A DNA stretch of 21,653 nt from a virus. The stretch spans positions 1-21,653 of the IMG/VR virus record IMGVR_UViG_3300046370_000103, one strand, 5' to 3'. A program made the translations under genes and the position numbers. Under the pieces are notes generated by a model that was given only the letters and a program-made list of their open reading frames with translations, did no database searches and had not been told where the DNA came from. How positions within the stretch are numbered: the stretch's first letter is position 1; every line of letters begins with the position of its first letter. Shown in pieces: positions 19,338 through 21,653 of this stretch.

Positions 19338-19593
19338 TAAACAAGAAACACTTGAGAAGATCGAAGATCTTAGAGCCAAGAAAAGCAAGCTAGAAAAGCA
19401 AGCTAGAAAAATTGGTGAAACACTAGCCAAACTAGAAACCGAAGCAGTAGAAAAAGGTTATGGCATGTGGGTGTTTTCTAGAACAAGAAAGATTGTTCCA
19501 GACTTATCATGGTGGAAAGACAATTATCCTAGAAGTTGGGAAAAGTATATTGAGATAAGATCTTACAACAAATTCGAACCATCAACTAAATAA
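19333..19593 (+). CDS. small protein with coiled-coil N-terminus (86 aa), first rightward gene
   Basis: The protein starts MDKQETLEKIEDLRAKKSKL and forms a clear coiled-coil over about residues 4-38, then a compact part with GYGMWVFSRTRKIVPDLSWW and KDNYPRSWEKYIEIRSYNKF that is rich in Trp, Tyr and Arg. The charge is positive. I do not recognise a family. The start carries the leader GAAAGGAAATACAATGGA shared with the next two genes; AAAGGA lies seven bases before ATG. The early position and small size fit an early host-directed or regulatory protein, but this is only context. Confidence 0.75.
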   Translation: MDKQETLEKIEDLRAKKSKLEKQARKIGETLAKLETEAVEKGYGMWVFSRTRKIVPDLSWWKDNYPRSWEKYIEIRSYNKFEPSTK

Positions 19594-19598
19594 CCAAC

Positions 19599-19618
19599 TG
19601 GGGAGCCACGGCTCCCCA
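19599..19618 (+). terminator. G+C hairpin after the first rightward gene
   Basis: TGGGGAGCC (19599-19607) pairs with GGCTCCCCA (19610-19618) around AC. There is no U-run, so this is a weak or non-terminating hairpin, perhaps for mRNA 3' protection or processing. A close relative (GGGGAGC-TGCG-GCTCCCC) followed by TTTT closes the last rightward gene. Confidence 0.5.
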
Positions 19619-19626
19619 ACCATTAC

Positions 19627-19644
19627 GAAAGGAAATACAATGGA
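19627..19644 (+). promoter_or_regulatory. repeated leader, copy 2
   Basis: Identical 18 bases to copies 1 and 3, ending in the start codon region of the 46-residue gene (ATG at 19640). Confidence 0.9.
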
Positions 19645-19780: not shown

Positions 19781-19784
19781 ATAC

Positions 19785-19812
19785 TTGTAGCCCAGTTGTT
19801 CCTGGGCTACAA
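19785..19812 (+). terminator. 11-bp hairpin after the 46-residue gene
   Basis: TTGTAGCCCAG (19785-19795) pairs perfectly with CTGGGCTACAA (19802-19812) over TTGTTC. It begins four bases after the stop codon. No U-run follows, so full termination is doubtful; processing or stabilisation of the upstream mRNA is as likely. Confidence 0.5.
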
Positions 19813-19828
19813 TCTAACTGTTCAATTA

Positions 19829-19846
19829 GAAAGGAAATACAATGGA
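19829..19846 (+). promoter_or_regulatory. repeated leader, copy 3
   Basis: GAAAGGAAATACAATGGA with the ATG at 19842; identical to copies 1 and 2. This gene and the first also share the next four bases (TAAA). Confidence 0.9.
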
Positions 19847-20270: not shown

Positions 20271-20336
20271 GAATATATAAACACAGGGCCGCAGGGCCGC
20301 AGGGCCTGCACAAATCCGGCTCGGACCTGCACAAAA
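20257..20336 (+). repeat. GYCGCAGR octamer cluster, left
   Basis: GTCGCAGG at 20257, then GCCGCAGG in tandem at 20288 and 20296, followed by ATCCGGC at 20314-20320. CCTGCACAAA occurs twice directly (20306-20315 minus the last mismatch, and near 20326). No gene is seen in 20198-20428 apart from these elements, the terminator and a TTG-rich 20-mer. Confidence 0.75.
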
Positions 20337-20428: not shown

Positions 20429-20617
20429 ATGACTATCAAAGCAAAATCCGAATGGATCGGAGACGACGGTTTACTTTTAAAAGTAAGCTTAGATACAAGT
20501 GAAAAGATTATAAAAAACTTGCAGGATCCAGATCTAAAAGCCGAAGTAAAAGCGGCGCTAGTTAAAGCCGCCGAAGAAAAGGCCGAGCGGATAACTAAAT
20601 TTTTCAACTATACTTAA
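20429..20617 (+). CDS. 62-residue helical protein
   Basis: I choose ATG 20429, preceded by ATTACGAAAGGATCTAGAACA, which resembles the leader of the upstream genes with AAAGGA ten bases before; a longer frame from 20372 runs through the TTG-rich repeat and lacks a ribosome-binding site. The protein begins MTIKAKSEWIGDDGLLLKVS, then SEKIIKNLQDPDLKAEVKAA and LVKAAEEKAERITKFFNYT, i.e. a short beta pair then a long charged helix. It is not recognised. It is the first gene between the two octamer clusters and is followed by the hairpin that precedes the DUF7227-like gene. Confidence 0.75.
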   Translation: MTIKAKSEWIGDDGLLLKVSLDTSEKIIKNLQDPDLKAEVKAALVKAAEEKAERITKFFNYT

Positions 20618-20621
20618 CCAA

Positions 20622-20654
20622 GGGAGGGAGGGGCGAAAGCCCCTCTAATTTTTT
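20622..20654 (+). promoter_or_regulatory. GNRA hairpin between ribosome-binding site and start codon
   Basis: GGGAGG (20622-20627) is followed by GAGGGGC (20628-20634), GAAA loop, GCCCCTC (20639-20645), then TAATTTTTT and the ATG at 20655. The hairpin plus U-run is a good intrinsic terminator of the 62-residue gene. With the stem folded, GGGAGG lies nine bases from the ATG, so the same stem may place the ribosome-binding site at the proper distance for the next gene. Confidence 0.8.
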
Positions 20655-21335
20655 ATGAAATCAGCTATTATCTACAACGGGCCTAGCTTATTGGATGATA
20701 AACCAATTGTAGTTATTGCCACCTATTCGAACCGTAACACGAAAACTGGCAAGGTAGTCCAGACTTATATATTGCGCGAAGATATAAACCCATTGGAAGC
20801 GTCGAAGACTGGCGAAGACTATTCCATATGCGGCGATTGCCCAATGCGCGGCGAAGTAACAACGGATCCGAGCCGCAAACAAGCTAAAGGCCGCAAGTGT
20901 TACGTTAACTTAGGCCAAGGTGTTTTAATTGTATGGAAGGCATACAAGCGCGGCGTCTATCAAACGGGCGACGCGGCAACAATGGGTCGTGGTCGTTTCG
21001 TCCGCGTCGGCACATACGGCGATCCCGCCGCTGTTCCCTCTCATGTTTGGGACAATCTTTTATCGGAGTGCGAAACGTGGACAGCGTACACTCACCAAAA
21101 ACCATGGCGTCCAGATATTGCAATGCAGTCCGCCGATAGTTACGCGGAAGCTGTTATGCATTGGAAGCAAGGTCGTCGGACGTTCCGAGTTGTCGCGGAT
21201 CTAGGACAGGTCGATAAAGCAAACGAAGCCGTTTGTCCTGCATCAAAAGAAATGAAACGACGGGCACAATGCACCGACTGCAAACTATGCAAGGGATCGA
21301 GCCAAGCAAAATCGATTGCCATAGTTGAGCACTAA
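20655..21335 (+). CDS. DUF7227-like Cys-rich phage protein
   Basis: The 226-residue protein begins MKSAIIYNGPSLLDDKPIVV and carries YSICGDCPMRGEV (C59, C62), GRKCYVNLGQGVLIVWKAYK (C82), GRGRFVRVGTYGDPAAVPSH, TWTAYTHQKPWRP, and a C-terminal CPASKEMKRRAQCTDCKLCK (C194, C206, C209, C212). This order is what I recall of DUF7227 proteins in many phages; function is unknown. Two Cys clusters suggest a metal or Fe-S site. The start is fixed by the family N-terminus, but directly upstream is only TAATTTTTT, so the nearest ribosome-binding site is the GGGAGG behind a hairpin. It is G+C-richer in codon usage (CGC, GGC) than the upstream small genes. A terminator follows five bases after its stop. Confidence 0.85.
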   Translation: MKSAIIYNGPSLLDDKPIVVIATYSNRNTKTGKVVQTYILREDINPLEASKTGEDYSICGDCPMRGEVTTDPSRKQAKGRKCYVNLGQGVLIVWKAYKRGVYQTGDAATMGRGRFVRVGTYGDPAAVPSHVWDNLLSECETWTAYTHQKPWRPDIAMQSADSYAEAVMHWKQGRRTFRVVADLGQVDKANEAVCPASKEMKRRAQCTDCKLCKGSSQAKSIAIVEH

Positions 21336-21382: not shown

Positions 21383-21401
21383 CATCCATATAATAAATAT
21401 A

Positions 21402-21653
21402 CTAGGCCGCAGAGTCGCAGGGTCGCAGGGTCGCAGAGATCCGGCGCTCTAACTTGGGTCGCAGGGCGCAGAACAAAGACGCAGGATCCTTGAACCTTGA
21501 ACCTTGAGCCGCAGAGACTCCGCCCTTGATCAAATCAGCCCCCTGATCACCGTCAAATAAAATTATATCGCGCTCCTTGAGGCTCTTTACCAAGATAAAA
21601 TTTGATCCACCTCGTGCCCAATATGCCATATTCCAAGCGACTTGATGAGCAGT
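21402..21653 (-). CDS. 3' part of a leftward gene, possibly a VRR-NUC/RecU-like nuclease
   Basis: The frame is open at the right edge and ends with TAG at 21404-21402. Visible residues are TAHQVAWNMAYWARGGSNFI, then LVKSLKERDIILFDGDQGAD and LIKGGVSAAQ, before about 35 residues that come from the octamer and CCTTGAA repeats. The pattern Q..W......GG..F.LV.......L.LFDG......L...G resembles the end of small PD-(D/E)XK resolvase-like nucleases of phages, where it follows the catalytic strands; those lie outside the window, so the call is tentative. The frame faces the rightward genes, so transcription converges here. The repeat-encoded tail may be translated or the gene may have been recently joined to repeat DNA. 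Confidence 0.5.
   Translation of the reverse strand, partial: TAHQVAWNMAYWARGGSNFILVKSLKERDIILFDGDQGADLIKGGVSAAQGSRFKDPASLFCALRPKLERRISATLRPCDSAA
21406..21515 (+). repeat. GYCGCAGR octamer cluster, right
   Basis: Four tandem copies (21406 GCCGCAGA, 21414 GTCGCAGG, 21422 GTCGCAGG, 21430 GTCGCAGA), then ATCCGGC at 21439-21445, a single GTCGCAGG at 21458, GACGCAGG at 21478 and GCCGCAGA at 21508. The same octamer and ATCCGGC occur in the left cluster. Confidence 0.85.
21488..21508 (+). repeat. three tandem 7-bp repeats
   Basis: CCTTGAA, CCTTGAA, CCTTGAG in direct succession inside the right octamer cluster. On the minus strand they encode part of the repeat-derived C-terminus of the partial leftward gene. 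Confidence 0.85.

Follow-up and report, generated by a model that had tools for sequence, protein, structure and literature searches.

In bacteriophage T4, intercistronic hairpins reduce the spacing between the Shine-Dalgarno (SD) sequence and the AUG from 27 to 11 nt for gene 25 (the gene 26-25 junction) and from 22 to 5 nt for gene 38 (PMC3014915, refs 108, 109). Starts with the order SD, hairpin and AUG were known before from few genes, above all these two. In the split ribosome-binding site of E. coli thrS, a folded hairpin is accommodated in the ribosome-binding region without melting (PMC3936740). At gene ends, ribosomes repress terminators positioned 5-6 bp downstream of a stop codon, full function being reached only beyond about 27 nt (PMC4824070). 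Our literature search, which covered few subscription papers, yielded no report of a split site that acts as an exchangeable junction or is fused with hairpins at gene ends. Here we describe a viral gene junction that, judged from its sequence and that of its relatives, is very probably an accommodated (split) ribosome-binding site of the T4 gene 25/38 type, built on the end hairpin of the preceding gene.

The junction in the window

The window analysed is the 21,653-nucleotide stretch of IMG/VR virus record IMGVR_UViG_3300046370_000103. Its junction between a small gene, denoted X, and the following gene contains these features:

20429..20617, + strand: gene X, 62 aa, the upstream partner (open reading frame with SD GAAAGGATC; family alignments)
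20615-20617, + strand: TAA stop codon of gene X (base-by-base reading)
4 nt, + strand: CCAA between the X stop codon and GGGAGG (base-by-base reading)
20622-20627, + strand: SD GGGAGG, assigned to the downstream gene (anti-SD duplex of -11.8 kcal/mol; sole site)
20628-20645, + strand: putative bridging hairpin GAGGGGC-GAAA-GCCCCTC (pairing probability, stem energy, pair-preserving changes in relatives)
20628-20634, + strand: 5' arm of the hairpin, GAGGGGC
20635-20638, + strand: loop, GAAA
20639-20645, + strand: 3' arm, GCCCCTC
20646-20654, + strand: spacer TAATTTTTT, a U-rich single-stranded 9-nt linker (TAA at 20646-20648, then T6 at 20649-20654)
20655..21335, + strand: DUF7227-like / PHROG 2554 gene, 226 aa, starting with ATG at 20655 (start conserved in 80 relatives)

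The initial annotation had located GGGAGG 27 nt upstream of the start, with a stem in between that leaves nine bases when folded, and this proved exact to the base: the SD-to-ATG distance is 27 nt in the linear and 9 nt in the bridged form. Folding the junction, as it had proposed, gave a stem pairing probability of ~1.0 and an energy of the stem alone of -14.5 kcal/mol, and the parallel it drew with T4 gene 38 agrees with the published shortening from 22 to 5 nt (PMC3014915). Its statement that the start has no SD at normal distance was likewise confirmed, since the anti-SD energy scan found no alternative site 4-14 nt before the ATG, the pre-hairpin segment pairing at -11.8 kcal/mol versus +2.0 kcal/mol for the 3' arm plus spacer. 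Each of the 80 IMG/VR relatives found for the downstream protein (82-100% amino-acid identity) aligns from residue 1, hence ATG 20655 is the true start. The name DUF7227-like points in the right direction, yet the match to Pfam DUF7227 (PF23872; E=0.016, 15.2 bits) falls below the curated cut-off of 27 bits; PHROG 2554 matches with E=5e-61.

The minimum free energy of the whole segment is only modestly better than that of shuffled sequences (z -1.57), as G/C-rich shuffles fold too; a single sequence with so unremarkable a value is no proof of function and the case therefore rests on relatives. A weak pairing of the SD with the U-run (GGGA with UUUU) has a probability of about 0.5 in the window and might mask the SD. 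A consensus scan, which a phage-specific promoter could escape, revealed no promoter between X and the DUF7227-like gene.

Comparison of related junctions

We compared 44 distinct junction sequences of this design (modules) from uncultivated, largely marine phages. The stem ends 7, 8, 9 or 10 nt before the ATG in 11, 15, 15 and 3 junctions, respectively, so that all 44 fall within 7-10 nt, and the linear SD-to-ATG distance is 25-30 nt. Hairpin energies range from -12.0 to -21.5 kcal/mol and SD energies from -7.6 to -12.9 kcal/mol, the best alternative linear site in the 44 junctions reaching -2.2 kcal/mol. The 14 distinct stems are all fully paired with both sides of pairs changed; exchanges among G-C, C-G and A-T occur at base pairs 1, 2, 4, 7 and 8, and pair 1 is found as C-G, G-C and A-T. 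Thus aligning the junction in relatives, the second check proposed in the initial annotation, did disclose paired changes. We used stem-anchored counts because RNAalifold on MAFFT alignments misplaces stems; it returned only a small covariation term, partly from misaligned stems.

Across 81 contigs, an ATG follows at 5-11 nt for 29 of the 33 distinct GC hairpins whose 5' base carries an SD, and for 10 of 472 that have none; these figures describe and are no strict probabilities, because the sequences are related, and they come from a module finder limited to ATG at 5-11 nt, part of each set having been collected by such patterns or scripts. A tally by hand of the X junctions gave about 44 with SD and ATG, none with ATG and no SD, 12 with neither and two with SD only (Fisher 1e-10, descriptive only, the sequences being related). 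These associations bear on the reading that the hairpin is simply a terminator or 3' stabiliser that has come to lie against the next gene by chance or through compaction, with the purines before the stem merely a part of the terminator and the start leaderless or served by S1 on the U-run. S1 could bind the U-rich spacers and gene-end hairpins are common here. However, hairpins without a following ATG mostly lack an SD, the spacer length is fixed at 7-10 nt, one junction (L325) keeps the bridge with a U-free spacer, and the DUF7227-like gene has its own SD (GAGGGTAAAA-ATG) where it follows an SD-less hairpin with T9 (L040, L061, L078), making a plain terminator highly improbable.

In random or unrelated phage DNA, ATG at 5-11 nt was no commoner than GTA behind 65 distinct SD-adjacent hairpins, therefore the module is not universal. 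A broad IMG/VR search with the pattern GGAGG-N14-26-ATTTTTTATGA was discarded, the hits being mostly chance matches without a hairpin and the real ones belonging mainly to this phage group. As a rough comparison only, the ATG figures being lower bounds, the complete scan with a GTA control pattern gave 85 stretches with 27 distinct hairpins, 8 of them GTATG, and the ATG pattern scan gave at least 120 stretches with at least 54 distinct hairpins, at least 25 of which have GCAA, GAAA or UUCG loops.

The X proteins constitute a divergent family of about 60-73 aa (consensus M.KSYV.E.TL.V.VDIDLGE...LRREA.EEARREFE.ML), and in nearly all 44 modules the gene upstream of the hairpin encodes one of them. 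X matched nothing in Pfam or PHROG, and the search for phage isolates carrying it found none. The gene that follows is changeable: the module, consisting of stop codon, GGAGG, GC hairpin, 7-10 nt and ATG, precedes about ten different genes, the families being judged by eye. These are the DUF7227-like gene, DUF7417, the HGxPxDRGGADAYYGR protein and the genes whose products begin with METKEQTL, MENRIAQK, MGYRVF, MATYNKEA, MTREEF, MMSISDF and MVTVENP. Sampling by X proteins showed the module in almost all close X clades, the exceptions, L036 and L337, having lost the downstream start or a portion of the stem. In distant X genes the hairpin is followed by an ordinary SD (L306, L348, L351) or forms an ordinary terminator, for instance GGGGCCC-TTCG-GGGCCCC-TTTTCTTT. 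Outside the module these downstream genes rely on ordinary SDs (DUF7227 without the module, DUF7417 away from X, METKEQTL). In the window it is DUF7227 that is bridged, METKEQTL (19641) having an ordinary SD, and in L025 the arrangement is reversed. In Roseobacter phage CRP-901, by contrast, a homologue of one of the downstream genes is arranged in overlap with the gene before it.

Among the window and its 80 DUF7227-like relatives, the hairpin lies directly before the ATG in 13 of 81 (window, L001, L008, L013, L014, L015, L018-L022, L028, L030). In nearly all non-module relatives the gene follows a promoter-like stretch of the ordinary kind and an SD, for example AGAAAGGAAACA-ATG, and L024 has a TAATG overlap instead of the module. 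Loss of the stem alone or of the SD alone in a relative that keeps the gene, which the initial annotation had named as contradicting its proposal, was found in none of the 80 relatives; non-module copies lack both. In L040, L061 and L078 a hairpin CGGGA...TCCCG with T9 and no SD before it lies upstream, and between the U-run and the ATG the gene carries an SD of its own (GAGGGTAAAA-ATG; ATGAGGGTAAAA-ATG). Immediately 5' of this hairpin, which may therefore be a leader attenuator, there is a promoter-like stretch. Bridged and unbridged copies are intermixed in the poorly resolved DUF7227 gene tree, from which the number of origins is not derivable. Short intergenic repeats, CCGCAGGG / GTCGCAGGG, surround the cluster (20282-20305 and 21400-21480 in the window, the same region in most relatives), often just 5' of the promoter-like stretch of the DUF7227-like gene.

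Comparison of these junction sequences shows a conserved geometry, covariation, an SD tied to the AUG and a changeable downstream gene. Three sequence features of a split site were found: a distant SD without an alternative, a stable hairpin leaving 5-11 nt, and pair-keeping changes in relatives. Hence the proposed bridge for a distant SD appears well founded across the 44 modules, with their 7-10 nt spacing, covarying stems and SD tied to the ATG.

Proposed roles of the hairpin in translation and termination

The SD of many modules shares bases with the X stop codon or lies immediately next to it (TAGGAGG, TAAGGAGG), as would suit translational coupling alone, in which ribosomes that terminate on X at 20617 start again at 20655 and the hairpin is neutral or a barrier. 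This leaves the conserved covarying stem (-12 to -21 kcal/mol) and the fixed stem-to-ATG spacing unexplained, and we regard it as improbable; coupling may nevertheless act together with the bridge. For the split site we propose that the SD directly 5' of the very stable hairpin, which follows the X stop codon, would be used with the folded hairpin positioned alongside the 30S subunit and 9 nt left between SD and AUG, so that the downstream gene would be translated despite the linear distance of 27 nt. Probably the hairpin is the gene-end structure of X itself, which in distant relatives serves as a terminator or 3' stabiliser, and has been co-opted for the next start. Since 5-10 nt separate the stop codon of X from the stem, a ribosome that completes X should prevent the hairpin from closing as RNA polymerase passes; after its departure the hairpin would refold and present the SD. 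Initiation on the folded RNA, a dependence of readthrough on X translation and any termination are our inferences; attenuation at the X-end hairpin is possibly translation-gated.

The initial annotation further suggested that the same stem plus U-run should end the preceding transcript; the junction would then be a working intrinsic terminator for X and, on readthrough RNA, a bridge. The window stem (7-8 bp, 6 G-C pairs) lies within the range for intrinsic terminators (at least 5-6 bp, GC-rich), and a terminator scan rated the hairpin with its U-run as terminator-like. A run of U5-U8 lies 1-3 nt from the stem in 31 of 44 modules, and ordinary terminators such as that quoted above end distant X members. 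On the other hand, the U5 run is lost or broken in 13 of 44 modules while the bridge is kept, five of the 44 lacking even U4; SD, stem and spacing are retained with degraded spacers such as ATTTACAT, ATTTAATT, ATTTTAC, TTTTCAC and AACCGCAC, the last of which (L325) is without any U. Moreover, the U-run never follows the stem at gap 0 (0/21 U5 modules versus 34/48 other U-run hairpins on the same contigs, p=1e-8): it is offset in 21/21 U5 modules versus 14/48 others, and the T6 of the window is set 2-3 nt off the stem, so that TAATTTTTT is a possible weakened terminator U-tract. Conservation of the U-tract across hairpin-bearing relatives, as expected of an intrinsic terminator, was not observed. 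Finally, the stem lies within the zone after the X stop codon in which translation represses terminators (PMC4824070). L364 and L365 illustrate both forms within one contig, GAGGGGC...GCCCCTC-TTTTTTTG as a terminator and the same stem with TATTTTTTTATG as a bridge. A junction serving both functions is thus plausible if somewhat doubtful. With the U-run degraded or offset and the stem near the X stop, the conserved duty in this phage group appears to be the bridge and termination optional; termination, if present, probably occurs only when X is untranslated. Of the joined control of transcription and translation originally suggested, the translation half is strongly supported and the terminator half finds partial but no general support in this phage group.

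Other hairpins were observed nearby. At 19593-19640 and 19782-19841 of the window, gene-end hairpins without a U-run directly follow stop codons (TGGGGAGCC-ACG-GGCTCCCCA; GTAGCCCAG-TTGTTC-CTGGGCTAC), each followed by an ordinary SD, AAAGGAAATACA-ATG. L006, L010, L012 and L028 carry a covarying 9-10 bp hairpin, GATGAGCCAG...CTGGCTCATC, with no SD, about 4 nt upstream of the MRLASINQ/MRLASVNE start codon; some of those contigs have a similar element on the other strand.

The pattern scan of other phages revealed a second, unrelated junction (L569-L628) between the major capsid gene (PF05065) and a DUF7302-like gene, its DUF7302 match (E=0.002) being below the family cut-off; a search of bacterial genomes and phage isolates for the DUF7302-like protein found none. 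When junctions were collected through the downstream protein, SD, hairpin and an ATG at 9-11 nt were present in 29 of 33 distinct ones; the remaining four carry an extended form. The module comprises G(A)GG, a 7-8-bp stem with covariation at pairs 5 and 7 (both sides changed), a GNRA-type loop and U5-7 at a gap of 0-1 in all 29 bridged cases. This good U-run, which gives a convincing terminator, makes terminator and bridge jointly plausible there and speaks for the combined function discussed above. A third junction, from a PF19821 capsid gene to a tail tubular gene (PF17212; L369, L410, L381), has the same layout and no U-run.

More tentatively, and rather unlikely in our view, the X end could constitute a socket carrying a ready-made start site, with genes exchanged by recombination at the AUG and gated by X. 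With X untranslated the hairpin could end transcription; with X translated the polymerase would pass and the refolded hairpin would recruit the ribosome. If so, X would control whether the inserted gene is transcribed and also whether it is translated, all in about 35 bases.

Relation to known systems

Gene callers and ribosome-binding-site models that expect a spacing of 4-14 nt would label such genes SD-less or leaderless. Dozens of natural variants in stems, loops and spacers exist at one site before different genes, in addition to the capsid junction, which makes the rules of hairpin accommodation and the link to gene-end termination directly testable, and the modules are compact ready-made parts.

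The closest likeness is to T4 genes 25 and 38, which also have a distant upstream SD and an intercistronic hairpin between SD and AUG, shortening the distance here from 27 to 9 nt, nearly the figures of gene 25; as in T4, members of one phage group retain the arrangement and more distant relatives lack it. In contrast to T4, one site here serves about ten interchangeable downstream genes in unrelated phages, and the predicted structure combines very GC-rich stems, GAAA/UUCG-type loops and a U-rich spacer on a gene-end hairpin. As at thrS, the ribosome would accommodate a folded hairpin, but the thrS hairpin, an autoregulatory operator, lies upstream of the SD, whereas in the present junctions SD and AUG flank the hairpin. 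The GC hairpin and U-run a few nt after the stop codon resemble the ribosome-repressed terminators at stop codons (tR2 constructs, pyrBI; PMC4824070), from which the modules differ in that the U-run is offset or missing in many of them and the structure doubles as the start of the next gene.
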